Shown here one piece after another: positions 6,319 to 46,146 of a stretch of DNA of 64,000 bases; within the stretch, counting starts at the first letter, position 1, and each line of letters opens with the position of its first letter. Source of the stretch: Sulfurovum sp. FS08-3. GTDB taxonomy: Bacteria > Campylobacterota > Campylobacteria > Campylobacterales > Sulfurovaceae. The DNA is taken from assembly GCA_000830175.1 (NCBI GenBank), contig JQIS01000001.1:97482-161481 (forward strand), in the 5' to 3' direction. A model generated the notes under the pieces. It was not told where the DNA came from. It saw only the letters and a list, made by a program, of their open reading frames with translations, and ran no database searches. Made by a program: the position numbers and the translations under genes.

Positions 6319-6879
6319 ATGAAACGCAATCAAATCTACAACATTCCCAATCTTTTGGCATTTATCCGATTGATGCTTGCACCTTTGATGTTTTTCTTGC
6401 TTGTCAATCGAGATGCCTCTTTTTTGGTCGGTATTGACCCCTCATGGCTCGATTTTTTTGCGGCGTTTATCTTTGTCATTGCTAGTATTACCGATTTTTT
6501 TGATGGTCTTATCGCACGTACGTTTGATCAAATCACCATGGTGGGCAAAATCCTTGACCCCTTAGCCGACAAAATGCTCACCCTTGCGGGATTTTTGGGA
6601 CTGATGATGCTTGAACGAGCCGATAGTTGGGTGGTCTTTTTGATTTTGACACGAGAGCTTTTTATTACAGGATTGCGTGTTTCGGCGGTGAGTCAAAATA
6701 TCGATATAGCAGCCTCAATGGCGGGTAAAATCAAAACCGTAGTGCAGATGATAGCCATTGGATTTTTGCTTATGGGGTGGTGCTGTGGGGAGGTTTTGCT
6801 CTATATTGCCCTAGCTTTGACACTCTATTCGGGCTATGAGTATGTGCGAGATTTCTTTAGAGGCATAGAGCTATCATGA
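6319..6879 (+). CDS. pgsA: CDP-diacylglycerol-glycerol-3-phosphate 3-phosphatidyltransferase
   Basis: Membrane enzyme of phosphatidylglycerol synthesis. It has about five hydrophobic helices and the full CDP-alcohol phosphotransferase signature in D-FFDG-LIAR-(x8)-VG-KILDPLADK, with all conserved Asp, Gly and Arg residues. An upstream extension of 27 codons exists in frame, but the ATG preceded by GGAGT and followed by MKRNQIYNIPNLLAFIRLML fits the normal family start. It overlaps the next gene by four bases (ATGA). Confidence 0.93.
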   Translation: MKRNQIYNIPNLLAFIRLMLAPLMFFLLVNRDASFLVGIDPSWLDFFAAFIFVIASITDFFDGLIARTFDQITMVGKILDPLADKMLTLAGFLGLMMLERADSWVVFLILTRELFITGLRVSAVSQNIDIAASMAGKIKTVVQMIAIGFLLMGWCCGEVLLYIALALTLYSGYEYVRDFFRGIELS

Positions 6880-7553
6880 AACGCCTTAGAGATGCTCTAT
6901 TGCTCAAACAGCTCTACCAACTCAAAGATTTGGATTATCAATACATTGATTTAAACCTCGAAGATAACGCAACCAATGACCCTACCTCTTTGCCCGATAC
7001 CCTACCCCAGCTCAACACCCTTATGGCATCGTGTCATTTGTGCAGCATCTCCAAAGTACGCCAAAACGTCGTTGTTGGTACGGGAAGTGCGCAAGCCACT
7101 ATTGTTTTTGTAGGTTTTAAGCCCACCATGGTAGATAGCTCCAATCGCAACATACTAAGCGGCTCCAAAGGCGAAATGCTTGTAAAGATTATCGAAAATG
7201 TATTGCAAATCCCTCGTGAAAATGTCTATATCACCAATCTTATCAAGTGCTACCCCAAAAACGACAAAACCATTGAAGCAAGTGAGGTTTACAGTTGTCT
7301 AAGCTACCTCCAAAAAGAGCTTGAGATCATTCATCCCAAAATCGTCGTAACGATGGGATGGGAAGCGTTTCATTACCTTACACAAGAGAGTATCACCCTA
7401 GAAGAGGTACATGGCAAAATCATTCAACACGAAAAGTTTGCCCTTATGCCTATCTATGATTTGACACACGTCCTCAAAAACCCCTCTCTCAAAAAGAACC
7501 TCTACGGCGATATGCTTAGGCTCAAAGAGTTTATAGGGAGAGGGAAAAATTGA
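6876..7553 (+). CDS. Uracil-DNA glycosylase family 4-like (4Fe-4S) protein
   Basis: 225 residues. Four cysteines in the iron-sulfur pattern of family 4 glycosylases are present: CHLC near residue 53, the Cys in YITNLIKCYP, and Cys in VYSCLSYL. The strand ATIVFVGFKPT and the GSKGEML segment align with the usual active-site loop and the GxxG motif, but GEAPG is replaced by GFKPT, and the HPS motif near the C-terminus is replaced by LTHVLKNPS. It may be a divergent glycosylase of the epsilon group or a protein that lost activity. The start overlaps the pgsA stop. Confidence 0.75.
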   Translation: MKRLRDALLLKQLYQLKDLDYQYIDLNLEDNATNDPTSLPDTLPQLNTLMASCHLCSISKVRQNVVVGTGSAQATIVFVGFKPTMVDSSNRNILSGSKGEMLVKIIENVLQIPRENVYITNLIKCYPKNDKTIEASEVYSCLSYLQKELEIIHPKIVVTMGWEAFHYLTQESITLEEVHGKIIQHEKFALMPIYDLTHVLKNPSLKKNLYGDMLRLKEFIGRGKN

Positions 7554-8967: not shown

Positions 8968-10983
8968 GTGAAAGAAGAACTACAAAAAATAAAAAATTTA
9001 TTAAATTTTGCCAAACGAGAATACGGAAATAAAAGTATTGAAGTAGTTGTATCCTACAGCAATATAGGTGCTATCTATACACGATCGTCAAATTATTCAA
9101 AAGCTATTGAATACTACAATAAAGCACTTAAAATACTTCGCTCATTGCCCCAATCCAAAAAAGTCTTAGAAGGGTTCAATGCAATCTATACACATATTGG
9201 TGAAACTTATACATATCTCAAACAATATGAAAAAGCAAAAGAGTACTTATTGGAATCTATCAAGTTTAGTGAAGCCATTAATGATATTTATGCCGAAGAT
9301 TATAATCATTTGATTATTTGTTATCTGCATCTAAATGAACCCGAGAAAGCTTTGGAGTATTTTGATAAAGATTTAGAACGCATTTCGCGACGAACAACAA
9401 ATAATAAAGAGGCACTCTTAACTATTTTGGCTAATTATATGAGTATATTAACACAAATGCAAAAGTTTGATGAGTCTAGAGAATATATTCCAATTTTAGA
9501 GTATCTTTTAATAGATTCAGCTTATATTCAACGCTACAAAGCCTATAAAATGCTCTCTGATTTTGCAGTTCAAACGATTAATTTTGCCAACAGTAGCGAT
9601 ACCCTAAGCTCAGTGGAACTCTCCTATCAATATATGCAAAAAGCTTTTAATGCCTACAATCAACATCTTAAGAGTAGTTTTGAAATAAGTGACAATCAAA
9701 CCAAACAAAATATAATGGATGAGGAGTATAACTATAATCTTAATATTGAATTTTTTGCAAGTGCATCTCACTATGTCTCCCATCTGTTGCACAATAAAAG
9801 CCCTCAAAATATGCTTAAAGCCGAAAAAGTCAATCAAGATAGCTTTAATGTTTGGATTAACTACAAAGGTGAAATATCCAATTTCAATACAATGATTGCA
9901 GTAGTAGAGGCTCAAACAGATAATCAATTACTTAAAAAAAATATCAAAAAGTGGAAAACTCTCAAGATACAACTCTCCAATCTCTATCAAGACTTTAATA
10001 ATGACAGGAGTGCATTAATAGAGAGTATAGAAAAAGAGATAAGTCATATAGAAAGCGAGTTAAGCAATCACTCAACACAATTTAAAGAGTTTATGGGATT
10101 ACAAAATCTTACTTACAAAGATATCGCCTCATACCTAAAGCCCAATCAGCTCTATGTTGATTTTGTATCTATGTATGGCAGTGATTACATTTTTATACTT
10201 GATAATGAATGCAACATAAGTTTTAAAACTCTCTTTCTTCAAGATACGCACAAATTAAGAACAAAAATACAAGCATTACAAAAAGAGTTGCAAAACAAAG
10301 AAGATAAAAGAAATATCAAACCCTTGTTGCAAGATATCTATCAAATTTTTGAAGATATTAGTTATAGCTTTGATACAAAAAGCCTTTTTGATGAGTTTAA
10401 AGACAAAACCGATCTCATCATCTCCCCCAATGGATTGCTCAACTTTATTCCTTTTGAGGCGTTGCATGATGGTACGAGCTATTTGATTGAATCCAAAACC
10501 ATTAGCTATGTATCAAACGCCAAAGAGTTTATCAAGGAGCATCGACGCAAAGCACAAGAGAAGGGTAATGGGGATATTGTTGTCTTTGCCAATCCTCACT
10601 ACGATATGAAATTTGGCAACGAAAACAGAGGTGTGCCGCCGTTGCTTAATCAAAGCTTTGGAGCATTGGAGGGGACGCAAAAAGAAGCCGATACCATTAA
10701 GGGCTATTACCCCAATGCCAAAGTCTATACCCAGCAAGAAGCCACAGTTGAAAATCTCATGAGCGTTCAAAACCCAAAAATCTTGCATATCGCTACGCAT
10801 GGGTTTTATTTGGAGGACGAAAACATGAGCAACAGTTTGCAAAAGAGTGGATTGGCACTTAGCGGTGCAGCACAAGCCAAAAAAGTAGGCGATACACGGG
10901 GTATTGTCACCGCTTTGAGTCTCTCTGCTCTCAATCTTGCTCAAACCGATCTGGTGGTGCTTTCGGCGTGTGAGACGGGGTAG
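8968..10983 (+). CDS. TPR-CHAT protease, frame ends early inside the CHAT domain
   Basis: A large soluble protein: tetratricopeptide repeats in the first third (for example VSYSNIGAIYTRSSNYSKAI, AIYTHIGETYTYLKQYEKAK), a helical middle, and a C-terminal CHAT (caspase-like) domain with the catalytic His in ILHIATHGFY and Cys in LSACETG. The frame stops at TAG immediately after SACETG. The missing C-terminal part follows at once in the -1 frame, so the gene is frameshifted. Start: GTG preceded by GGGAGG; an ATG 33 bases upstream is the alternative. CHAT proteases cut specific partner proteins after activation through their repeats. Neighbours suggest a three-gene unit with an HTH-like protein and an exported protein. 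Confidence 0.8.
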   Translation: MKEELQKIKNLLNFAKREYGNKSIEVVVSYSNIGAIYTRSSNYSKAIEYYNKALKILRSLPQSKKVLEGFNAIYTHIGETYTYLKQYEKAKEYLLESIKFSEAINDIYAEDYNHLIICYLHLNEPEKALEYFDKDLERISRRTTNNKEALLTILANYMSILTQMQKFDESREYIPILEYLLIDSAYIQRYKAYKMLSDFAVQTINFANSSDTLSSVELSYQYMQKAFNAYNQHLKSSFEISDNQTKQNIMDEEYNYNLNIEFFASASHYVSHLLHNKSPQNMLKAEKVNQDSFNVWINYKGEISNFNTMIAVVEAQTDNQLLKKNIKKWKTLKIQLSNLYQDFNNDRSALIESIEKEISHIESELSNHSTQFKEFMGLQNLTYKDIASYLKPNQLYVDFVSMYGSDYIFILDNECNISFKTLFLQDTHKLRTKIQALQKELQNKEDKRNIKPLLQDIYQIFEDISYSFDTKSLFDEFKDKTDLIISPNGLLNFIPFEALHDGTSYLIESKTISYVSNAKEFIKEHRRKAQEKGNGDIVVFANPHYDMKFGNENRGVPPLLNQSFGALEGTQKEADTIKGYYPNAKVYTQQEATVENLMSVQNPKILHIATHGFYLEDENMSNSLQKSGLALSGAAQAKKVGDTRGIVTALSLSALNLAQTDLVVLSACETG

Positions 10984-24757: not shown

Positions 24758-25396
24758 TTATCTTTGAATATTTGATACAATACCCAATATCTCTCTCAAA
24801 TCCTTCTCCTCTATGCAATGCGTGGCGGACTCTTTGAGGATGGGTTTGGCACAAAAGGCGATGCGGGTGTGGGCGTATTGGAACATACTAAGATCATTAG
24901 CACCGTCACCTACTGCAAGGGTGTTGGCTTGTGAGATTCCCAAAAGTTTTTGAAGTCTTTGAAGCATATCGCCTTTGGAGTGCGAAAACATCATATCTCC
25001 ACCTACTCGTCCGCTCAAAATCCCCTTCTCATCGTGCAAGATATTGGCAAAATCGGCATCAATGCCCAAAAAAGCACAAGCTGGTGTTGTAGCATTTCTA
25101 AATCCACCCGAAAAACAAATCACTTTGTAGCCTCTATTTTTGAGTCCCTCGACCACCTCTTTGGCTCCGTTCATCAAAGGCAACTCTTGACAAATGGCAT
25201 CAAGTGCGGATTTTTCAAGCCCCTTAAGCAACGCCACACGAGTCGTAAGTGCTTCAAAAAAATCCAACTCCCCCGCCATTGCCTTCGCCGTAATATCGGC
25301 TACCTCTTTTTCAAATCCTAGCGGTTTTGCCAAAAAATCAATCGTCTCTCCATCCATCAAAGTCGAATCAAAATCAAAAACAGCCAATTTATCCAT
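24758..25396 (-). CDS. serB: Phosphoserine phosphatase
   Basis: Last step of serine synthesis: removes phosphate from phosphoserine. HAD fold with motif I FDFDSTLMDGET (both catalytic Asp), motif II CFSGGFRNAT, and motif III/IV in HSKGDMLQRL and TLAVGDGANDLSMF. 212 residues, full length for a SerB without the N-terminal ACT domain. It lies 79 bases downstream of polA on the same strand. Confidence 0.95.
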   Translation of the reverse strand: MDKLAVFDFDSTLMDGETIDFLAKPLGFEKEVADITAKAMAGELDFFEALTTRVALLKGLEKSALDAICQELPLMNGAKEVVEGLKNRGYKVICFSGGFRNATTPACAFLGIDADFANILHDEKGILSGRVGGDMMFSHSKGDMLQRLQKLLGISQANTLAVGDGANDLSMFQYAHTRIAFCAKPILKESATHCIEEKDLREILGIVSNIQR

Positions 25397-25475
25397 GCTA
25401 TCCCTTTGTAAAAAATGTTGTCATTATATCTTAAATGGTTCAAAAAATGATGCAATCAATTGCACCCTACAGTAT

Positions 25476-28178
25476 TTATTTTAGCTCACCCCAACTATCA
25501 CCAATTGAGATACTGCACTCCAATGGAACATTAAGTTCTCTGATGTTTTCCATAATCTTTGCAAATTTTTCTCCCAACTCTTGGGCTTTGTCCTCTTGTA
25601 TCTCAAAGATTAGCTCATCGTGGATTTGCAAAAGCATTTGAGCCTCCATTTTTTGAGCCTCTATCACCCTCTCAATCTCCACCATGGAGAGCTTGATAAG
25701 ATCCGCCGCAGAGCCTTGAAAGAGCGTATTGACCGATTCACGTTCATAAGAGGCTTTTATCATCGCATTGGCTTGGGTGTAGTCAAAAACCCGTCGGCGT
25801 TGAAGCAGCGTTTGTACAAAGCCACGACTCTTCATCCCCTCTTTGATACCCTCCAAAAAGCTCTTGATAGAGGGAAAAGCCTTGAAGTAGTTTTCGATAA
25901 TCACCTTGGATTCTTGGGTGCTAATGTGCAACTCATCGGAGAGTTTACGGCTTCCCATGCCATAAAGTAAACCAAAATTAATCGATTTGGCAAAGCTTCG
26001 TTTGGCTTTTGCATCCTCCTCTCCAAAGAGTTTGATAGCCGTAGCAAGGTGAATATCCACCCCTTGCCTAAACGCCTCCATCAACGCCTCATCTTGACTA
26101 AAGTGTGCCAAAAGCCTAAGCTCAATTTGCGAATAGTCAATTCCTACGAGTTTGTATCCCTCTTTTGCCACAAAAGCCTCTCGCACCTCTCGCCCTAGCA
26201 CTGAACGTACGGGAATGTTTTGCAAATTGGGGTCTTTTGAACTCAGTCTCCCCGTGGTTGTACCCGTTTGGATAAAGCTGGTATAGACTCGTCCTTGTGC
26301 ATCGCTTTGAGCCAATTTGATAAGCGGTGTGACGTAGGTTGAGAGAATCTTTTGATGTTCACGATACTCTAGCAAAAGCGGCACGATGGGGTGAGCATCG
26401 ATAAGGGTGCTAAGGACTTGTTCATTGGTAGAGTAGCCTGTTTTGGTCTTTTTGCTCCCTTGAAGTTTGAGGGTTTCAAACAAAACAACGCCCAATTGTT
26501 GGGTTGATTTGATATTAAATTCACCCCCCGCTTGGGCGTAAATGGCAAGGGTTAGCGTATGGAGCTTTTCGTTGAGCTTAGTTTCAAGGTTTTTGAGCTT
26601 GCTTGTATCCATTTTGATTCCTCTAGCTTCCATTTGAGCCAAAGTATTGATAAAGGGAATCTCTAACGTATCAGCCTCTTCAAGGAGATACTTTAATTCC
26701 TCACGATGAAACAAATCGACCAAATAGTTATAGACTTTGCGGCACATCCACGCATCTTCAGAGGCATAAAAGGAGGCGGAGTCGATATCGACGTAGCTAA
26801 AATCCTCTCCTTTTTTGACGACCTCCTTAAAGGGTTTCATGGTGTATCCAAAATAACGTTTCGCCAAAGCATCAAGCCCAACGCTAAGCGATGAGTCGTA
26901 AAGCCATGCCAAAATCATACTATCGCCAAAAGGCCTGTAGCGTTCAAAGCCGTAGCGGTTGTAGAGCAAAGAGAGATCAAATTTGAGATTTTGTCCTACG
27001 ATTTTATGGTGTGTAAAAAGCCTCTTGATAGCTATCAAGGCATCTTGAAGTGCGACTTGCTCCCCAACTCCTAGATAGCTGTGTGTAATAGGGACATAGT
27101 AGCCTTGCGATTCATCAAAACAAAAGCTAAAGCCCACCAACGAAGCTCTTTTCGTATCAAGCCCTGTTGTTTCGGTATCAAAAGCCACAAGGGCATCATG
27201 AGGAATGGAGTCTATCACTTCATTGAGGGCTTGGGTTGTGTTTAGCGTATGGTGTGCAAAAGTGAGTATTGGCTTACTCTCTTTGGGAGCGGAGGGTTGA
27301 GGAGTCGATAGGTAGTGGCTATCCTCTTTGGCAGCACTCTTGAGGGCTTGGTGCATTTCGTACTTGATAAACTCATCTTTCAAACACGAGAGGTAATTTT
27401 TCTCCTCAAAAACAAAGCGTTGCAAATCAAAATCCTTCAAAACATCGTCTCTAAGGGTGACAAGTTCACGAGACAAAAAGGCACTCTCTTTGGATTGAAG
27501 CAAAAGCGATTGGGTGCGTACGGGGGTAATGGTATCAATATGGGCATAAATATTTTCAAGTGTGCCAAACTCATTGATAAGTTTACTCGCCCCCTTTTGC
27601 CCTATTCCTTTGACTCCAGGGATATTATCGGAGCTATCGCCCAAAATAGCTTGAAAGTTGGTAAAATCTCTAGGATAAACGCCAAACTTTTCAAACGCCT
27701 CCTTTTCGCCAATCTCACGCTTTTTGATGCTATCATACATCACTACCTTGCCCTCTTCGATAAGCTGATAGAGGTCTTTGTCGTGTGAGACGATGCGTAC
27801 TTTGAGTCCTTTGGCTTTGGCAAAATGCGTCACGGTTGTGATAATATCATCGGCTTCAAACCCCTCTTGGGAGAGATTGGCAAAACCCATCTTCTCTATC
27901 CACTCAATAGCTACGGGGAGTTGTGCCAAAAGCTCCTGCGGTGCGGGTGGGCGGTTGGCTTTGTAGTCTTTAAAAAGCTCATTGCGAAAGGTCTTGCCTT
28001 TGCTATCAAGGGCAAACACTAGATAATCGGTTGAGTGGTCACGATGGAGCGAATCTACAAGCTTGACAAATCCCGTAAGCAATCCCGTAGGAAAGCCTTG
28101 GGAGTTGCGTAGCGGTGGCAGGGCAAAAAAGGAGCGGAAAAAAAATCCAAAGGTGTCGATAATCGTGATAGTTTTCAA
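25476..28178 (-). CDS. polA: DNA polymerase I
   Basis: 900 residues with all three domains. The 5'-3' exonuclease is at the N-terminus (IDTFGFFFRSFFALPPLRNS, SHDKDLYQL, GDSSDNIPGVKGIGQKGA). The 3'-5' exonuclease has an intact ExoI motif (ALVAFDTETTGLDT) near residue 335, so proofreading is probable. The polymerase part shows motif A (VGIDYSQIELRLLAHFS, about 680), motif B (RSFAKSINFGLLYGMGSRKL, about 730) and motif C (QIHDELIFEI, about 855). It works in Okazaki fragment maturation and repair. The upstream neighbour mnmG ends 14 bases before its start region. Confidence 0.97.
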   Translation of the reverse strand: MKTITIIDTFGFFFRSFFALPPLRNSQGFPTGLLTGFVKLVDSLHRDHSTDYLVFALDSKGKTFRNELFKDYKANRPPAPQELLAQLPVAIEWIEKMGFANLSQEGFEADDIITTVTHFAKAKGLKVRIVSHDKDLYQLIEEGKVVMYDSIKKREIGEKEAFEKFGVYPRDFTNFQAILGDSSDNIPGVKGIGQKGASKLINEFGTLENIYAHIDTITPVRTQSLLLQSKESAFLSRELVTLRDDVLKDFDLQRFVFEEKNYLSCLKDEFIKYEMHQALKSAAKEDSHYLSTPQPSAPKESKPILTFAHHTLNTTQALNEVIDSIPHDALVAFDTETTGLDTKRASLVGFSFCFDESQGYYVPITHSYLGVGEQVALQDALIAIKRLFTHHKIVGQNLKFDLSLLYNRYGFERYRPFGDSMILAWLYDSSLSVGLDALAKRYFGYTMKPFKEVVKKGEDFSYVDIDSASFYASEDAWMCRKVYNYLVDLFHREELKYLLEEADTLEIPFINTLAQMEARGIKMDTSKLKNLETKLNEKLHTLTLAIYAQAGGEFNIKSTQQLGVVLFETLKLQGSKKTKTGYSTNEQVLSTLIDAHPIVPLLLEYREHQKILSTYVTPLIKLAQSDAQGRVYTSFIQTGTTTGRLSSKDPNLQNIPVRSVLGREVREAFVAKEGYKLVGIDYSQIELRLLAHFSQDEALMEAFRQGVDIHLATAIKLFGEEDAKAKRSFAKSINFGLLYGMGSRKLSDELHISTQESKVIIENYFKAFPSIKSFLEGIKEGMKSRGFVQTLLQRRRVFDYTQANAMIKASYERESVNTLFQGSAADLIKLSMVEIERVIEAQKMEAQMLLQIHDELIFEIQEDKAQELGEKFAKIMENIRELNVPLECSISIGDSWGELK

Positions 28179-28192
28179 TACAAAAGCCTTAA

Positions 28193-30061
28193 TTAAATTT
28201 GTTTTTGTGCCATTTTGATATAGACGTGGAGTATCTCCAATGAAGCGGGAGTCACGCCTGAAATCTCTGAGGCGTTAAAGAGTGTGGGAGGATTGGCTTT
28301 TTTGAGCTTTTCGACTATCTCGTTGCTTAGTCCTGATACTTTGGCGTAGTCAAAATCGTTGGGGATTTTAAGTTTGAGCATATCTTTCATTTTGGATACT
28401 TGCATCAATTGTTTATCGATGTATCGGTGGTATTTGGCTTGGATAAGTATCTGTTCTATTACTTCATCGCTGTAGGACTCAAACGCTGGAATAAGCGTCG
28501 TGAGTTTGCTGCGATTGTACTCTCCTCTACCTACTACATCAATGAGGGCGGTTTTATCATTAAGTCCCATCTCACCGATACTCTCAAGTAATCCAATAAG
28601 CTCTTTGGTAGGTGTGACGTAGCTGTTTTTGAGATACTCCACCCCCTCCTCAATCGCTGCTTTTTTGGCATACAATCGCTCCAAATAGTCACGTTCAAGG
28701 AGTCCAAATTTCTCCCCGTAGTGGCTTAGACGTATATCGGCATTATCTTCTCTTAGTAGCAATCGATACTCTGCACGTGAGGTAAACATACGGTAGGGTT
28801 CGAGTGTCCCTTTGGTCACAAGGTCATCGATAAGTACCCCAATATACGCCTCATCTCGTCCCAAAATAAAAGGCTCTTCACCATTTAAAGCAAGGACGGC
28901 ATTGATACCTGCCATCAATCCCTGGGCCGCTGCCTCTTCGTAGCCTGTCGTGCCGTTGATTTGCCCTGCGAAATAGAGGGCTTTGATTTTTTTGCACTCC
29001 AAAGTGTGATAGAGTTCGGTAGGCTGGATAAAATCGTACTCGATAGCGTACCCATAACGTACGATTTTGGCACTCTCCATCCCTTTGACGCTCTCTATCA
29101 TCTCTTTTTGTACCTGTGTGGGCAAAGAGGTACTCATGCCGTTGATGTAACACTCAGCGTTGTGTATCGTTTGAGGCTCGACGAAGATTTGATGGCGAGG
29201 TCTATCCCTAAAGCGGTAAATCTTATCTTCGATACTAGGACAATACCTAGGGCCCACGCCGCTAATTTGTCCGCTAAAGAGCGGTGCATTTTCAAAATTG
29301 TTCTCAATAATAGTATGCGTATCTTCGTTGGTATAGGTGACATAGCAGGGCAATTGGATAGGATTGAAGCTCTTTTTGTCGGTACGAAAACTAAAAGGCA
29401 TAGGAGGCTCATCCCCGCCTTGAGGCTCCATAACGCTAAAATCAATACTCTTTGCATCAATTCTAGCACACGTCCCCGTTTTGAGTCGTCCTATTTCAAG
29501 CCCCAAACGACGCAAATACTCACTAAGTTCAATAGAGGCAAACTCCCCTTGACGACCCGCACTCAGTTGGGTTTTGCCAATATGAATGATACCGTTGAGA
29601 AACGTTCCTGCAGTAATAATCACTTTGGAAGCCCGATACTCATTACCTAGTTGTGTCACCACGCCTTTGGCAACGTTGTCGTCGATAATAAGCTCCGTAA
29701 CCATCTCTTGCTTGACATCCAAATGGGGAGTTTGCAAAATTTTATCGTGCATGTAGTTTCGGTATCTATCCATATCGATTTGCGCCCTACTCCCTCTTAC
29801 TGCTGGACCCTTTGAGCCGTTTAGGATTCGGTATTGTATCCCCGTAGCATCGGTACAAAGCCCCATTTCGCCTCCAATAGCATCAAGTTCTTTGACCAAA
29901 TGCCCTTTGGCAAGTCCTCCAATAGCGGGGTTGCACGATGAAGCGCCGATTTGTTCTACCAAAATAGTCACAAGCAACGTCTTAGCCCCCATCCTAGCAC
30001 TTGCCAACGAAGCCTCTATTCCCGCATGTCCACCACCAACAACTATTACATCGTATTGCAT
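28193..30061 (-). CDS. mnmG: tRNA uridine-5-carboxymethylaminomethyl modification enzyme MnmG (GidA)
   Basis: FAD-dependent enzyme that with MnmE modifies U34 of several tRNAs. About 622 residues. The FAD-binding [10 protein letters not shown] follows the start [29 protein letters not shown] and [17 protein letters not shown] are family signatures, and the C-terminal helical MnmE-binding domain is present. An in-frame extension upstream of this ATG is not used, since AGGAAAAAT stands directly before the ATG and the family starts here. Confidence 0.96.
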
Positions 30062-30146
30062 ATTTTTCCTAAAGTATAAAAAGTGTACCATTATATCAAA
30101 ATTTAAATTGCAATATTCTACAACTTTTTTAGAAAGGTAACCCCAA

Positions 30147-31103
30147 ATGAAATTCGCAGATCCCAAAAACGATTTGGCTTTTAAAAAAATATTTGGTGAC
30201 ATGAATCACAAAAATATCCTTATCTCATTTTTGAACTCTGTGCTTGATTTCAAAGATGGCTTTGCTATTGTTGATGTATCACTAGCAAACCCCTATCAAG
30301 TCCCTAGAATCGAAGACCTCAAAGAGACTATTCTTGATATCAAAGCCAAAAACCAAAACGGTGAACATTTCATTGTCGAAATGCAAAAAAAAGATTTGGG
30401 TAACTTTGCCAAAAGAAGCCTCTACTACACATCCAAAGCCTATGTCGAACAGCTCCCCAAAAAGAGAGATTACTCTGTTTTGAAAAAAGTCTATTTTATT
30501 GGCATACTCAACTTCACCATCTTTGAAAACAAAAATTACATCTCAAGACACCTTATTATCAATCAAGAGACCCAAACGCAAGATTTGGAGGATTTTGAAT
30601 TTAGCTTTATTGAGTTGCCTAAATTTACAAAAGATATTCATGAACTCGGTAGCACTTTGGATAAGTGGATATACTTTATCCAAAACGCTTCAGACCTAAG
30701 CGTTATCCCACTCCAATATGAAAATTTAGAAGCTTTCAAAGAAGCCTTTGGTATAGCTACTCAAACCCTATGGGACACCAAAGAGCTCGAACTCTACGAC
30801 TATATCGCCCTCAAAGAGTACGATGAGATAAATGCGTTGCAAACCGCACAAAGAAAAGGGGAAGCAATAGGAATTGAAAAGGGGATGAAGAAAGGAATGG
30901 AAAAAGGAATGGAAAAAGGAATGAAGAAGGGGATGGAAAAAGGGATGGAAAAAGGGATGGAAAAAGGGATGGAAAAAGGGATGGAGCAAAAAGCAATAGA
31001 GATAGCCCAAAAGTTGATAACTCAAAGTTTTGATAACGATACAATATGTACAATTACAGGACTATCCAAAGAGAGGATTGAGGCATTAAGAGCAAGCAAT
31101 TAG
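30147..31103 (+). CDS. Rpn/PD-(D/E)XK nuclease family (transposase-like) protein
   Basis: 318 residues. The N-terminus [16 protein letters not shown] and the nuclease core [20 protein letters not shown] (D ... E-x-Q form of the PD-(D/E)XK motif) identify the Rpn/PDDEXK transposase-like family, which promotes recombination and occurs in many copies in some genomes. Near residues 245-280 is a run of nine Lys-Gly-Met units, after which the C-terminus [20 protein letters not shown] resembles the usual short helical end. It is the only gene of this kind here, between mnmG and a helicase gene. Confidence 0.85.
30877..30984 (+). repeat. 12-base tandem repeat coding for (Lys-Gly-Met-Glu/Lys)n
   Basis: About nine near-identical 12-base units of the form AAAGGGATGGAA within the Rpn-type gene. 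The last five are almost perfect copies, which points to recent expansion. Changes in number keep the frame and alter only the length of a charged helix. Confidence 0.85.
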
Positions 31104-31106
31104 ACT

Positions 31107-33167
31107 TTATTGCGATATTTGTGCTTTATCCGTAATACCATCTTTGTCGATCATTTTGGCTTCATGTAAGAATGCGGAGGGTTCAAACTCTATCTTTTTG
31201 AGTTTGTCGTATTTGGCAAGAGAGAGATAGAGGTTGTCTCTAGCACGGGTTACGGCTACATAGAAGAGTCGTCGCTCTTCGTCGATATCGGAGCCGCTTT
31301 TGGCAGCAAGTTTGCGATTGGGGAAGCGTCCATCCATCAAATCGACTACATAGACATCTTTAAACTCCAACCCTTTACTTGCATGTACGCTCAAAAGATT
31401 AACCCCCTCTCCCTCACTTAGTTCATTGCCTCCGAGTATCATGGCATTGATAAAGCGTCCCAACTCTTGATAGTGTTTGGCAAGGTCAAGCAAAAGTTTG
31501 GCTTTACGTTCAATGCGTTCTTTGGCTTGTTTTTTGCGTTCTTCATCTATCTCTCCGTTTTTCAGTCGTGCACGCGATAGGGCTAATGTTTCGATGACGT
31601 ATTGATAGAGACGTGAATCAATGGCTTTTCTCAAAATCGAAGCGGGAGGATTGGAGGAGGAGACTTGCATCATCAATTCATAAAAATAATTAAGAAAGGT
31701 TACGCCCTCGTGGGTAATACGGGGATGTTTGAGCAAAGGGTGTCTTTTGATAGCATCGTAAATTGCCATTGAAGCAAATCGTGCTTGAGAGCCAATCTCC
31801 AAATCATCGTCAAAGAGTCCCAGTTGCACATTTTTGGTAGGATTGAATTTGGGTAGCTCTTTTTCGATGGGTTCTAGTAATCCACGCAACGCATTTCCCT
31901 TGCCAAAGTGTACCATAGAGGTAAAAAATTCTCGTGAAAGAGCCGAACCGACATTTTTGGCGTACTCAAAAATATGGATAAATGCCATCATATCTTTGGG
32001 ATTGTTGAGCAGTGCCAACGCATCAAGCAAAAACTTAATCTCTTTGGCATCAAAAAAGCTAGTGCCTCCTTTGCGACGTGAGGGGACGCTAAGCTCCCTA
32101 AGTGAGGCTTCAATCCCATCGGCACTGGAGTTGTTACGAAAAATCACAGCAACATCAGCAAAAGGCGTAGGGGAGTCTTTGATAGCTAGTGCAATCGATT
32201 GGTATTGGGCAAATAGCTCATCGTATATGAGAAGTTTGGGTTTGCTAAACTCTCCTTGACGTACCACCTCCAAACTTTTGGGATAGATACGCTCATTGTG
32301 TTCAATGACACGATTGGCAAGAGCCAAAATAGCACTCGAAGAGCGGTAGTTTTTGGTAAGGGTATGGATGGTTGCGTTGGGATAGCGTTTGTCAAAGGTG
32401 GAGATATTTTCGATATTAGCCCCATTAAAAGCATAAATACTTTGGTCGTAATCGCCTACGCAAAAGAGCGATTGTGAGCGTAAATCATCGATCAAAGCCC
32501 CTTGAAGAGTATTGGTATCTTGATACTCATCGACAAGTACCTCGGTAATATTGGGACGTACATGGGTAACATACTCACGGGTTTTGAGCAACAAATCATT
32601 AAACGACAAAAAACCATACTCCTCTTTGGTGGCTTCATACTCATCAATAATACCCAAATAGATATCCATCAAAATTTTATGTTCTTCGTATTTGTTGCCA
32701 AACCACGCTTCAAAGCTTTCAAGTGTAGCGTTTTGATAGAGATTGTATTGGTCGTAGAGGTGCGAAGCACTAAAAGGCTCAATGGGTAATCCTAGTCGCT
32801 TAAAGGCTCGTCGTTCATAAATAGAGCGAAAAAGGGTACGCAACTCATTGGGTTGTTTGAGCGAAATATCAGGATAGGCACTCTTAAGCCATCGATAACC
32901 AATAGCGTGAAACGTCCCCGATTCGATTTGACCAATAAGTTGAGCGGGGAAAAATTTCTCCAAACGTGCTATCATCTCCCCTGCAGCTTTGTTGGTAAAA
33001 GTAAGCAAAATGATAGTGCTAGGCTCGACGCCATTTTTGAGCAGATAAGCAATACGTCCTACAATCGTAGAGGTTTTGCCCGTCCCTGCACTGGCAATCA
33101 CAAGATTAGCACCCAATGGCGTTGTAGCAGCTTTGAGCTGCTGGGCGTTTAGATTGGCTAGAGGCAT
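31107..33167 (-). CDS. UvrD/Rep/PcrA-like superfamily 1 DNA helicase
   Basis: 686 residues. Motifs in order: Walker A ASAGTGKTSTIVGR, motif Ia LLTFTNKAAGEM, Walker B EVLVDEYQDTNTLQ, motif III GDYDQSIYAFNGA, motif IV TLTKNYRSSSAIL, motif V LLSVHASKGLEFKDVYV and motif VI AVTRARDNLYLSL. Such enzymes unwind DNA 3'-5' in repair or at stalled forks. Assignment to UvrD, Rep or PcrA is not possible by eye. The start overlaps the stop of the preceding gene by one base (TAATG). Confidence 0.93.
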   Translation of the reverse strand: MPLANLNAQQLKAATTPLGANLVIASAGTGKTSTIVGRIAYLLKNGVEPSTIILLTFTNKAAGEMIARLEKFFPAQLIGQIESGTFHAIGYRWLKSAYPDISLKQPNELRTLFRSIYERRAFKRLGLPIEPFSASHLYDQYNLYQNATLESFEAWFGNKYEEHKILMDIYLGIIDEYEATKEEYGFLSFNDLLLKTREYVTHVRPNITEVLVDEYQDTNTLQGALIDDLRSQSLFCVGDYDQSIYAFNGANIENISTFDKRYPNATIHTLTKNYRSSSAILALANRVIEHNERIYPKSLEVVRQGEFSKPKLLIYDELFAQYQSIALAIKDSPTPFADVAVIFRNNSSADGIEASLRELSVPSRRKGGTSFFDAKEIKFLLDALALLNNPKDMMAFIHIFEYAKNVGSALSREFFTSMVHFGKGNALRGLLEPIEKELPKFNPTKNVQLGLFDDDLEIGSQARFASMAIYDAIKRHPLLKHPRITHEGVTFLNYFYELMMQVSSSNPPASILRKAIDSRLYQYVIETLALSRARLKNGEIDEERKKQAKERIERKAKLLLDLAKHYQELGRFINAMILGGNELSEGEGVNLLSVHASKGLEFKDVYVVDLMDGRFPNRKLAAKSGSDIDEERRLFYVAVTRARDNLYLSLAKYDKLKKIEFEPSAFLHEAKMIDKDGITDKAQISQ

Positions 33168-34001: not shown

Positions 34002-35267
34002 ATGGATTATTTAACAATCGAAGGCGGTGCCAAACTGAGTGGGAGTGTTACAATTAGTGGCTCCAAAAATGCAGCTTTGCCCGTCATTGCAGCGACGCTA
34101 TTGAGTGACAAAGATATTACACTTGAAAATTTACCCAATGTGGTGGACATCAAAACGCTTCTCAAGCTTGTAGAGATGCTTGGAGGCAAGGTGAACTACC
34201 ACGATAATCACAGTGTCACCATCAACAATCGCTCCATTAGCTCCACCAAAGCCGTTTACGAGATCGTCTCGCAAATGCGTGCATCGATTTTGGTGCTAGG
34301 TCCTTTACTTGCTCGTTTTGGAGAGTGCGAAGTCTCTTTGCCAGGTGGATGTGCTATTGGGCAGCGTCCTATTGATTTGCATCTCAAGGCACTTGAAGCC
34401 ATGGGTGCAGTTATAGAGATTAAAAGCGGTTATGTAAAAGCCTATGCACCCGATGGTTTGAAGGGTGCAAAGATTGTTTTTGACAAAATTACCGTAGGAG
34501 GAAGCGAAAACGCTATTATGGCAGCGGCTCTTGCTCATGGCACAACGACTATCATCAATGCAGCCAAAGAACCCGAAGTGGTGCAACTGTGCGAAATATT
34601 GGTCGATGGGGGAGTTTTGATTGAAGGCGTTGGTACGAGTGAGATTACCATCGAAGGCACGGGAGGTAAACCCATTGATTTTAAAACCCCTATTACTATT
34701 ATCCCTGATAGAATTGAAGCGGGTACCTATTTATGTGCGGGAGCGATTACAAAATCCTCTATTACACTCAAAAAGGTCAATGCTCAACACATCAAAGCCT
34801 CTATTGATAAACTCGAATCGATGGGGTGTCAATTTGATATTAGCGATGATGAAGTCACTATCTACCCACCTGAGGAGCTTATCTCGGCGAATATCACCAC
34901 AACCGAATACCCAGGATTTCCTACCGATATGCAAGCTCAATTTATGGCTTTGGCGATTGTCTCCAAAGGCGATACACTTATCGAAGAGCGACTCTTTGAA
35001 AATCGTTTCATGCATGTAAGCGAACTCAATCGTTTGGGGGCTGATATTTGGCTCAAAGGCAATATCGCTGCGGTGCATCAAGTCGATGAACTCAACGGTG
35101 CGGATGTAATGGCGACTGATTTAAGGGCTAGTTCAGCACTCGTATTAGCCGCTTTGATTGCCAAAGGCGAGACCAATATCCACCGAATCTATCATCTTGA
35201 TAGAGGATACGAAAACCTAGAGGGCAAACTAAGTGCCTTGGGGGCGAAAATTCATCGCCACAAATAA
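34002..35267 (+). CDS. murA: UDP-N-acetylglucosamine 1-carboxyvinyltransferase
   Basis: First committed step of peptidoglycan synthesis: transfers enolpyruvate from PEP to UDP-GlcNAc. 421 residues, usual length. N-terminal [20 protein letters not shown] holds the catalytic Lys, and [19 protein letters not shown] holds the active-site Cys (residue 117), the residue attacked by fosfomycin in other species. The second domain shows [19 protein letters not shown] single-copy housekeeping enzyme; the start is the first ATG after AGCAGGATGA. Confidence 0.97.
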
Positions 35268-35404: not shown

Positions 35405-38400
35405 ATGACAATAATGAAACAGATATTTTCCATGAAAGTTGCGGTGATTTTGCTCTTTGTATTTGCTATTGCTATTGGCAGTGCAACATTTATAGAAAAT
35501 GATTACGGCACACAAAGTGCTAGGGCGTTGGTTTACAATGCTACATGGTTTGAGGCGTTGCTGATTTTTATCACCTTGACGCTGATTTTTAATATCTATC
35601 GCTTCAAGATGTACAAACGCTCCAAATGGGCAGCACTGACATTTCATGTCGCTTTTATTTTGATTGCTATAGGTGCAGGAATGACACGCTATATTGGCTT
35701 TGAGGGTGTGATGAGTATTCGTGAGGGGGCTACGGCTTCGACAATGATGAGCGATGTAATGCTTTTGCAAATAGATGCTCAAAAAGAGCAGTATGAAAAG
35801 GTACTCCATCTCTCCTCTATGAGCAAAAACAATCTCAAAGAGAATATTAGCCTAGAGGGCAAAGAGATAGAGGTGGAGCTTCTTGAGTATCTGCCCAATG
35901 TAGGCAACAAGATTGAAGAGAATAACGGTAGCGGCGTTGTAGAGATGATGCTCTCGTTTGGTAGCGGTTCGGCTACTATTATGCTTCAAAAAGGGGATGT
36001 TTACGAGAGTGAGAGCTTTGTTGTGAGCTTTGAAAAAGCAATAACAAGCGACAAAAAGATACTCGCTATCCATGAACACAACGGAAGCCTTGTCGTAAAC
36101 TCTCCTTATGATTTCAAAACCCTCAATATGGATACACAACAAGAGGGCAATATCACAAAGGGTGCAAATATCGCTCTTGCCAATCGTATGCTCTATCAAT
36201 TTGAAGAGGGTGGAATGGTCATCAAAAAATACTACCCCAAAGGCTCACTTACTCTTGCTTCAAACTCCATCAAACCTCAAGCAGGTATGCCTGACCTCAT
36301 TAGACTCAAACTAAGTTGTGCCAATGAGAATCAAACCGTTGCTTTGCAAGGGACACAAGGGAGTGTAGGAGAGTTTAAACGTGTAAATTTGTGCGGTAAA
36401 AGTTTAAATCTGCGTTATGGAGCCAAAATGATTGAGCTGCCTTTTTCTATCAAATTAGAGGATTTTGTCATGGATAGATACCCAGGATCCAACACCCCCT
36501 CCTCCTACTCTAGCCATGTAGCGGTTGTCGATTCAGAAAAAATGATCAATATGCCCTACCATATCTATATGAACCATATTTTGGAGTATCGAGGCTACAA
36601 GTTTTTTCAATCCTCTTACGATCAAGATGAAAAAGGCACAGTCCTTTCGGTCAATCACGACCCTGGTACGCTTCCTACCTATGTGGGATACTTTTTGTTG
36701 ATAGTGGGTATGGTGTGGGTACTCTTTGCCAAAAATGGACGCTTTCAAACCCTTCTTCGCTCCGCAAGAGAGTTGCAAAAAGGTGCTTTGGCTTTTGCTT
36801 TGATGGTTGTGCTTTTGGGACACACACCCCTTAGAGCCGATGAAACAGCTATTAGCAAAATCCATGCTACCAAATTTGGAGAGCTAATCGTTCAAGATGC
36901 TCAAGGACGCATGAAACCTCTCGATACCCTCTCCAAACAAATCATTACCAAAATAACACGCAAGAGTACTTTTTTGGGACTTGATTCCAATCAGCTCCTT
37001 TTGGGCATGATTATCGCTCCAGAGGCTTTTCAAAAAAAACCCATGATTAAAATCGGACACCCCTCAATCGCCCAAAAACTAGGATTTGACACAACCCAAA
37101 AATACCTACGTTTTAGTGATTTTTTTGCTGATAATATGAAAACCTACAAACTCTATGACGATATTATGGTAGCCAACCGTAAACGCCCCATTGAGCGAAG
37201 TACTTATGACAAAGAGATTATCAAAGTCGATGAGCGTATCAACATCTCCTACATGGTCTATACAGGTTCGCTGATACGCATTTTTCCCAAACCCAACGAC
37301 AGCAACAATCTCTGGCTCTCTCCCATGGATGCTATGAAAGATTTTGAAGCCAAAGATGCCCAAATGGTACAGCTTATGACGATGAACTATTTCCAAGGGA
37401 TTGAAAAGGGTATCAAAGAGGGAGATTATACCAAAGCCAATGAGGCGTTAGGCTTTATAGAGCAATTCCAACAAAAATACGGCAAAGCGGTAGTACCAAG
37501 CCAAACGCACGTTAAGCTTGAAATTCTCTACAACAATCTCAATCTCTTTGGCCGTCTAACGCCTATCTATATTTTGGTGGGACTTGTGTTACTTATTTTA
37601 TCCTTTATTCATATTCTTAAACCCAACTTTAATCTAAGACGCTACACACGCATTGTGCTTTATATTATTGTCTTTGGATTTATGATTCACACGCTAGGTC
37701 TCTTTTCTAAGATAGAAGCGGGTAAATTGACCATTGATGCTATTGATTTTGATCTCTTTAAACTCATTGATAGCATTATAGAGCTGCTTGAACACAAAAT
37801 TTATGAAAAGAACTTAGATCTTGTCGTAAGCTATGATAACAATTTAGGTAAAAATTTCTACGGTGATAGCCTTAGAATCTCTCAAATCCTTACCAATTTC
37901 ATCGGTAATGCCGTCAAATTTACCGACAAAGGCGAAATAGCTCTCTACATCACCAAGGCTTCTACCAATCGTGTACGCTTTGAAGTACGAGATACAGGCA
38001 TAGGACTTACCCCAGAGCAACAATCCAAACTCTTCCAGTCCTTTTCACAAGCCGATGGTAGCACAACACGAAAGTATGGCGGTTCAGGTCTAGGGCTTAC
38101 TATCTCCAAGCAACTTGCTGAACTGATGAATGGAGAGGTTTGGGTGGAGAGTGAGTTTGGCAAAGGTAGCAGCTTCTTTTGTGAGATTGAACTCAAAGAG
38201 AATCCACTCAGTGCACAATTTCAAATCTTTGAAAATAGAAAAATTCTCATTGTAGATGATAACCCTACATGGCATAAGACCATCCAAAATATGCTTGTGC
38301 GATTTAATATAGCCTCAGATTGTGTCTGTAGTGGTTATGAGGCTATTGAAAAGATAATAGAGTCCCAAAGTGGATACGATTTGATTTTGATGGATTGGCA

Positions 38401-39649
38401 GATGCCTGGGCTTGATGGTATCGAGACGGCAAAACATATCAACCAAACCTACAAAACAATAAATCATAAAAAAATACCCACTATTATCATGGTAAGTTCC
38501 TATTCGCAAGAGTCCATCAACCACAAAGCACAAAGAGTAGGCATAGAGAGGGTATTGCAAAAGCCTATCAATCCCTCCAATCTCAATGATATTTTAAGCA
38601 CTGTTTTTATCAACGATTGGGCATCTAGCTATGCACATGAGTCAAAAAAACGCAAACAACCCAAAGATATTGGGGTGCTTAAAGGCTCATCCATCTTGCT
38701 AGTTGATGATAATGAAACCAATAGAGAGATTGTAGTAGGTCTGCTTGAAGAGAGCGGTATTGAGATTGAACAAGCCACAAATGGTCAAATGGCAATAGAT
38801 AAATACAACGCCAATCCCAACAAATACAAACTCATTTTAATGGATATCCAAATGCCTATTATGGATGGTCATCAAGCTACCTCTATCATTCGTCAAACCA
38901 ATCAAAAGATACCCATTATTGCATTGAGTGCCAATGCTATGAAAGAGGATATAGAAAAGAGCTACACAGTGGGGATGGATGAACATCTCAACAAACCCAT
39001 TGAGGTCAATAAACTCTACGATGTGCTTTTGAAGTATCTGCCCAAAACAAACGATGCACTTTCCAAGGTAAAAACTCCTCTTGCATCAAAGAGTCTTATA
39101 CCTCTATTTGATACTATTGATACCATCAAAGGTTTGGAGTATCTAGTGGGCAATGAAAAGCTCTATCTTAAATTGTTGCGAAATTTCAAAAAAGATTATG
39201 AAAATCTTGAGATTAGGAGTCTCGATGAAGAGAGCTTTGGACGTACCATCCACACCATCAAGGGGCTTAGTGCCAATATCGGCGCTATGGCTTTGCACAC
39301 AAAAGCCAAAAATCTTGAAAGCAATAGAGATAGGTTTCATATTGATGCTTTTTCGCAAGAGCTTAGTGGTGTCATAGAGGAACTCATTCAAAAGCTTCCA
39401 CTAGAAAGCCAATCCATAAACACCAAAATCGCAATCGACCAACACGAAAAAGCCAAACTCTTTCAAAAGCTTCACGATGCACTTGAACTAGGTGAGCTTC
39501 AAGGGTGTCATGCACGCATCAAAGAGATAGAGAAGTACCAGCTAGACGACAAAAGCGACGAACTCTTCAAGAGTATAAAAGAGTGTGTAGATAACTATGA
39601 ATTGGATGAAGCACTTGAACTCTTGGAAAATCACACCCAAAAGCTATAG
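35405..39649 (+). CDS. Chimera: CcsBA cytochrome c synthase N-terminus fused to hybrid histidine kinase C-terminus
   Basis: 1414 residues in one open frame. Residues 1-765 are CcsBA-like: three N-terminal helices including [14 protein letters not shown], a large periplasmic ResB-type domain, further helices, and the helix [18 protein letters not shown]. The WWD haem-handling domain and the last histidines of CcsA are missing. At about base 37700 it continues as [20 protein letters not shown], a sequence normally found just after the HisKA helix of hybrid kinases. Then follow HATPase ([29 protein letters not shown]), REC 1 (Asp997), REC 2 (Asp1147) and an HPt domain (His1283 in [13 protein letters not shown]). 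The kinase phospho-acceptor His is absent. Either a deletion fusion or a chimeric join; neither half looks functional in its usual way. Confidence 0.8.
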
Positions 39650-39683
39650 CAATAGTTAAAACCAAAAAGAGAGGATATTGCAC

Positions 39684-40877
39684 ATGCCATTGAAACAAAA
39701 TATTTTGATTGTGGATGATGAGAAGTCAAACATTGATATTGTTTTAAATCTTTTTTCACTGACCGATACAAGTAATTACAACCTTTTTGTTGCACTTTCG
39801 GGAGAAAAAGCACTCAAAGCTGTAGAAAAAATTAAAATTGACCTCATACTTCTTGATATTATCATGCCAGGAATTGATGGATATGAGGTGTGCAGACAAC
39901 TCAAAGCCAATGAAAAAACCAAAAATATTCCTATTCTCTTTATCACTTCAAGTACCGATGAGGCTTCCATTATCAAAGCCTATAATATGGGAGCTGTTGA
40001 TTATGTCACGAAACCCTTTAGAGCTGTGGAGCTAATGGCTCGTGTCAAAATTAATCTTGAACTCCAATCAACCATTGGAGAGCTAGAAGCACTCTACACT
40101 AATCTACAAGACTCTATCGCGTATGCTGCACAAATTCAAAATGCTATTATTCCACAATCATCACTTTTTGATAAATATTTCGATGAACACTTTGTGATAT
40201 GGGAACCCAAAGATACAGTTGGAGGCGATATCTATCTCTTTGAAGAGCTAAGAAATGATGATGAGTGTTTGTTGATGGTCATTGATTGTACGGGGCATGG
40301 TGTAGCTGGAGCTTTTGTGACGATGCTTGTGAAGGCGATTGAACGAGAGATTATTGGTGCTATTGTTGCAACTCAAAATGATGTAAGTCCCGCACGAATC
40401 TTGCAATATTTCAATAAAATAATGAAGAAACTTTTGAAACAAGAGGATGCGAATACCTATGCAAATTCTGGCTTTGATGGCGGAGTTGTCTATATCAATA
40501 AAAAAGAGAAGATTTTAAGATTTGCAGGTGCTCAAATACCATTTATATATGTAGAAGATTCTAAAGTGAAAATCATTCAAGGTAATCGTCACTCCATTGG
40601 ATATAAAAAATCACAAGATGACTACCCATTTGATGAACACACCATCAATCTCACATCGCCAATCTATGGATACCTTACAACCGATGGATACATCGACCAA
40701 ACAGGTGGTGAAAATGGCTTTATGTTTGGCAAAAAAAATCTTTTGGAACTCATAGAGAGACACAAAGATAGAAGCTTTCAAATCCAAAAAGAGCTACTCA
40801 TCAACGAACTCAAAGAGTATCAAGGAAAACATGAACGCAAAGATGATATTGCTATTGTGGGGTTTAGGGTTGGGTGA
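39684..40877 (+). CDS. Response regulator with SpoIIE/PP2C-type phosphatase domain
   Basis: 397 residues. Receiver domain at 1-125 (NILIVDDEKSNIDIVLNL, phospho-acceptor Asp in LILLDIIMPGIDGYE, Lys in YVTKPFRAVEL), a short helix, then a PPM/SpoIIE-like serine phosphatase domain from about 165 (DTVGGDIYLFEE, MVIDCTGHGVAGAFVTMLV, GYLTTDGYIDQTGG, DDIAIVGFRV). Start at ATG with AGAGGA upstream rather than an earlier TTG. It follows the kinase-like gene by 34 bases and is probably the output partner of that phosphorelay, acting on an anti-sigma-antagonist type protein not present here. Confidence 0.9.
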   Translation: MPLKQNILIVDDEKSNIDIVLNLFSLTDTSNYNLFVALSGEKALKAVEKIKIDLILLDIIMPGIDGYEVCRQLKANEKTKNIPILFITSSTDEASIIKAYNMGAVDYVTKPFRAVELMARVKINLELQSTIGELEALYTNLQDSIAYAAQIQNAIIPQSSLFDKYFDEHFVIWEPKDTVGGDIYLFEELRNDDECLLMVIDCTGHGVAGAFVTMLVKAIEREIIGAIVATQNDVSPARILQYFNKIMKKLLKQEDANTYANSGFDGGVVYINKKEKILRFAGAQIPFIYVEDSKVKIIQGNRHSIGYKKSQDDYPFDEHTINLTSPIYGYLTTDGYIDQTGGENGFMFGKKNLLELIERHKDRSFQIQKELLINELKEYQGKHERKDDIAIVGFRVG

Positions 40878-45924: not shown

Positions 45925-45955
45925 TCTTTTTCCTAAGGATTTAAATGGGTTTAAT

Positions 45956-46117
45956 TGACTTTACGCACTTTTATCGGAAGTGGGACTTTAGTCCCACCAA
46001 AAGCTAAGATTTGGTTGTCGTTACTATACAAAGCCAATAAGTGGGACTGAAGTCCCACCTCCGAAATGCCATTGCATCTGCATATTTTACAAATAGAGTA
46101 TAGGTGCGTAATATCAG
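45956..46117. repeat. MITE-like palindromic element, core type C, copy 2
   Basis: Starts TGACTTTACGCAC and ends GTGCGTAATATCAG, so both family termini are present. The interior has GGAAGTGGGACTTTAGTCCC and GGGACTGAAGTCCCACCTCC arms, then ATGCCATTGCATCTGCATAT and TACAAATAGAGTATAG. Much like the copy at 59406-59570. It fills the space between ribE and the CPBP gene, both on the minus strand. Confidence 0.8.
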
Positions 46118-46146
46118 GTTTAATTATAGCCAAAATCCAAATAGAG

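Follow-up and report, generated by a model that had tools for sequence, protein, structure and literature searches.

CcsBA moves haem across the membrane and couples it to apocytochrome c. The System II synthases of Epsilonproteobacteria (Helicobacter hepaticus, H. pylori and C. jejuni) are encoded by a single CcsB-CcsA ORF with a ResB part and conserved TM-His, and P-His1, the WWD domain, TM-His and P-His2 of CcsBA have been reported to be necessary for synthase function (PMC11322641). A gene of this type is present in the window, the 64,000-nucleotide stretch analysed here (C59:97482-161481), which belongs to the draft genome of Sulfurovum sp. FS08-3 (68 contigs, 2.54 Mb; completeness 100%, contamination 0.09%). 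It shares the CcsB-CcsA layout, the ResB part and a TM-His with the described synthases, but it stops at aa 766, without P-His1, WWD, the other TM-His and P-His2. The frame then runs on into a hybrid histidine kinase. This part shares the HATPase, the two REC and the HPt-like end with intact PAS-HisKA-HATPase-REC-REC-HPt kinases of Sulfurovum SulCav_AS07 (genome G003; L012:5237-8944) and of the same genome (L116:5263-8961), and the window and L012 both have a response regulator-SpoIIE (RR-SpoIIE) gene after the kinase. In contrast to these intact kinases, the sensor, PAS and HisKA of the window kinase are lost before 37702, through the join rather than by a shared ancestral loss. The features of the locus are listed below.

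34002-35267, + strand: murA-like gene of the EPSP-synthase family (EPSP_synthase), the natural upstream neighbour of ccsBA; gene order as in congener G004 (L011).
35405-37701, + strand: codons 1-766 of ccsBA, its 5' three quarters, with the ResB/CcsB part and the start of CcsA; orthologous to the intact ccsBA of 1018-1020 aa in G004 (L011) and G003.
37701-37702, no strand: blunt join GGTCT/CTTTTC, without microhomology in the nucleotide comparison; putative assembly misjoin.
37702-39649, + strand: 3' portion of a hybrid histidine kinase without its head (HATPase_c, REC, REC, HPt-like; PAS and HisKA absent), aligning to kinase B of G003 (1235 aa) and to the paralogue that Sulfurovum sp. FS08-3 itself carries at C59:53262-56960 (L116:5263-8961).
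39678-40877, + strand: response regulator-SpoIIE phosphatase (Response_reg, SpoIIE), which naturally partners the kinase upstream of it; in G003, the orthologous gene (L012:8973-10172) comes after the intact kinase.

The fused ORF (35405-39649, + strand) encodes 1414 aa from an ATG start with zero internal stops, of which aa 767-1414 are hybrid kinase. Pfam matched ResB (PF05140, E 2.7e-21), HATPase_c, two copies of Response_reg and, at 20.3 bits, Hpt, the last being under the Pfam cut-off of 24.6; HisKA and Cytochrom_C_asm had no match in the ORF. The CcsBA motifs SGHAPWSN, WANESWGRYWGWDPKETW, LHLRF and GLHSYA were all absent from the 1414 aa, as was the kinase H-box MSHEIRTP. Of the P-His and TM-His of CcsBA, one TM-His (FHVAF, aa 80) is all that is kept. 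Measured against a functional CcsBA, the protein as assembled therefore has the ResB (CcsB) part and lacks the CcsA part, with its WWD domain, P-His1, P-His2 and complete pair of TM-His. Measured against a hybrid histidine kinase, it has the HATPase_c boxes (DTGIGL and GGSGLGL, both intact), REC and the HPt-like His, and lacks HisKA with the phospho-acceptor His. The earlier note, made from the letters of the window, had described an in-frame CcsBA-to-kinase join at 37660-37740, with the CcsA domain, kinase sensor and phospho-acceptor His missing and REC-REC-HPt present. The Pfam and motif searches bear out this description, and the join is a blunt break between 37701 and 37702, within the interval that the note gave.

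Nucleotide comparison located the break to the base. The ccsBA matches of three congeners (G001, G003 and G004) all stop at 37701, and the hybrid-kinase matches begin at 37702-37703. The base 5' of the join agrees with ccsBA and not with the kinase, and the base 3' of it agrees with the kinase and not with the ccsBA of G004. Since each flanking base fits one side only, there is no microhomology at the join. There are also no Ns at the join, which we counted against a misjoin. Two genes on the same strand that are bluntly joined will be in frame one time in three, and for this reason an in-frame, N-free join requires no special cause.

Both genes are found intact in relatives, and apart in G003. 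Frames of 1017-1020 aa for ccsBA are present in G001, G003 and G004, all of the same genus. In G002, a 77% complete genome, ccsBA had no match at the threshold applied. In G003, the complete 1235-aa kinase (PAS, HisKA, HATPase, two REC, Hpt) is on a separate contig from ccsBA, and immediately after it comes the orthologue of the window's RR-SpoIIE gene. A search for the same join, proposed in the earlier note, found a protein spanning it in none of 60 relatives and none of 175 genomes of the family (one genome per species). The matches in the 175 genomes were to the CcsBA side alone, to the kinase side alone or to ordinary kinases with frames of 912-1239 aa.

The missing CcsA half is on another contig of the same assembly. 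A profile search of the 68 contigs detected a single ResB-family copy, the half gene of the ORF, and a single match to Cytochrom_C_asm, at C7:12859-13293 (- strand), covering model positions 68-212 of 212 and cut by the contig end. C7 is 13293 bp long; the CcsA half (C7:12748-13293) lies at its terminus, and the reading frame stays open up to the contig end. On contig C86 of G004, C59 leaves ccsBA at 6742 and C7, read backwards, re-enters it at 6957, indicating that a single ccsBA is split across C59 and C7 with a gap of 214 bp. C7 carries the WWD domain, the other TM-His and P-His2, and P-His1 falls in the 214 bp. These bases are absent from the assembly and not merely misplaced, which was counted against a misjoin. 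A second, complete ccsBA elsewhere in the genome, which the earlier note had suggested looking for, was rejected by the ResB and Cytochrom_C_asm searches; only the CcsA half on C7 was found.

The identity to G004 on either side of the break shows that the two pieces belong together. In the window, identity to G004 lies mostly at 86-95% from 35.3 kb to ~37121 and rises to at least 99.5% over the final 580 bases 5' of the join. On C7, 3683 bases counted inward from the contig end (L115:9611-13293) match G004 at 98.9%. One high-identity tract thus crosses the break from C59 to C7, and by this comparison C7 is the true continuation of ccsBA. Contamination of the assembly by a G004 strain was rejected as the origin of C7, because C7:1-9601 has only 91-93% identity to G003 and G004, like the remaining genome. 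The tract of 98.9-100% identity (37121-37701 and L115:9611-13293) within a lower background suggests recent recombination or strain mixing in the assembly. Another tract of high identity to G004 was observed at about 31540-32940. On C7 (L115), homology switches abruptly at 9601-9611, between metH-like and pgeF-like genes, from 91% to G004:C52 before to 98.9% to G004:C86 after. Neither G003 nor G004 showed this metH-like/pgeF-like arrangement, and the switch is possibly a second misjoin or a real recombination edge.

Further features of the window were recorded. A block at 24758-30122, with polA-like and mnmG-like genes among its contents, has the opposite orientation in G003:C147 (8574-13898). 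A PDDEXK_2-family transposase ORF (30147-31103) adjoins this block and interrupts the G003 gene order (window 24758-31138). A short interspersed repeat at ~45950-46130 has many matches of 80-95% over the contigs of G003 and G004.

The kinase side was compared with its close paralogue in the same genome (1232 aa, HisKA present). The initial 66 bp 3' of the join are identical to the paralogue, after which identity is 62-91% per 100 bases. The kinase path thus seems to begin at the border of a sequence common to the kinase copies, where assembly graphs break, but we take this as no more than a hint, since 66 bp barely exceeds the other exact runs between the two copies (55 and 50 bp). The L116 kinase has a body like kinase B and a tail like kinase A of G003, an apparent recombination between tandem kinase genes, and the tail of the window kinase is B-like. 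The differing tails indicate that tandem kinases were shuffled, either in the lineage or in the assembly. A simple exchange between the two kinase genes at this point, with the front from L116 and the back from the window, was rejected, as the L116 kinase stays mostly 80-92% similar to kinase B of G003 across and beyond the corresponding position. The 5' half of the window kinase was not found on any of the 68 contigs, which we counted against a misjoin; this half may have been left out of the assembly or collapsed into the L116 paralogue.

Two readings would make the join real. The first is a deletion fusion, one of the two alternatives in the earlier note, here taken as fixed in the species; its product would be a kinase anchored in the membrane, devoid of the phospho-acceptor His and feeding REC-REC-HPt. 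The single continuous open frame and the intact HATPase, REC and HPt-like parts are compatible with it. However, the supposedly deleted CcsA half persists at the cut end of C7, which a deletion fails to explain, and no congener or other relative has the join. The deletion reading fails on these two grounds, and we regard it as extremely improbable. The second is a translocation or inversion, in the strain or in part of the population, that broke ccsBA, fused its 5' part to the kinase and turned the CcsA half, at another place in the genome, into a pseudogene. The frame that stays open across the join with zero Ns, the recombined kinases nearby (L116) and the other rearrangements of the region (the transposase ORF and the inverted block) speak for it. 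Against it, the CcsA piece stops exactly at a contig end and is not in a reciprocal junction, the join has neither homology nor microhomology and is absent from the relatives searched, and a genome with c-type cytochromes would be left with no cytochrome c synthase. We consider such a rearrangement very unlikely. If at least some of the population did carry the join, for which the chances seem about as slim, the CcsBA transmembrane segment would anchor a His-less kinase core; the HATPase would have no phospho-acceptor of its own, and REC-REC-HPt would be a relay for the adjacent RR-SpoIIE protein.

The fusion is better read as ordinary rather than as a new protein, because the missing end of the synthase sits cut off at the tip of C7. 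From these comparisons, two ordinary genes were very probably misjoined during assembly to give the CcsBA-kinase frame. The chimeric assembly join, the alternative given in the earlier note, is thereby strongly favoured. In metagenome assemblies, ~1-2% of contigs were found to be chimeric, with extensive misassemblies by every assembler compared (PMC7329831), and the draft genome is likely a metagenome assembly. Like those chimeric contigs, the window has an abrupt change of homology, and the half of ccsBA that it lacks is at the end of another contig of the same assembly; the window join differs in lacking Ns and in being, by chance, in frame. One path of the assembler would have ended inside ccsBA and another would have begun at the stretch common to the paralogous kinases, the two ends then being fused without Ns. 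The ccsBA of the organism would be one complete gene, running from 37701 through ~214 unassembled bases to the end of C7. A separate, complete hybrid histidine kinase, probably sensor-HisKA-HATPase-REC-REC-HPt, would lie upstream of the RR-SpoIIE partner. A clean, in-frame and N-free fusion in a draft genome can be a misjoin even at 100% completeness and 0.09% contamination, and looking for the missing half at the end of another contig is a quick way to settle such cases.

The genome encodes c-type cytochromes, namely FixO of the cbb3 oxidase and a di-haem peroxidase (L116:11545-12570), for which a cytochrome c synthase is required. Since no synthase gene other than the split ccsBA was detected, the organism would naturally have an intact CcsBA and a separate, intact hybrid kinase, which, judging from what is known of the family, presumably passes phosphate to the neighbouring RR-SpoIIE phosphatase. 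Proteomes predicted from this Sulfurovum draft genome will contain a false 1414-aa CcsBA-kinase protein.
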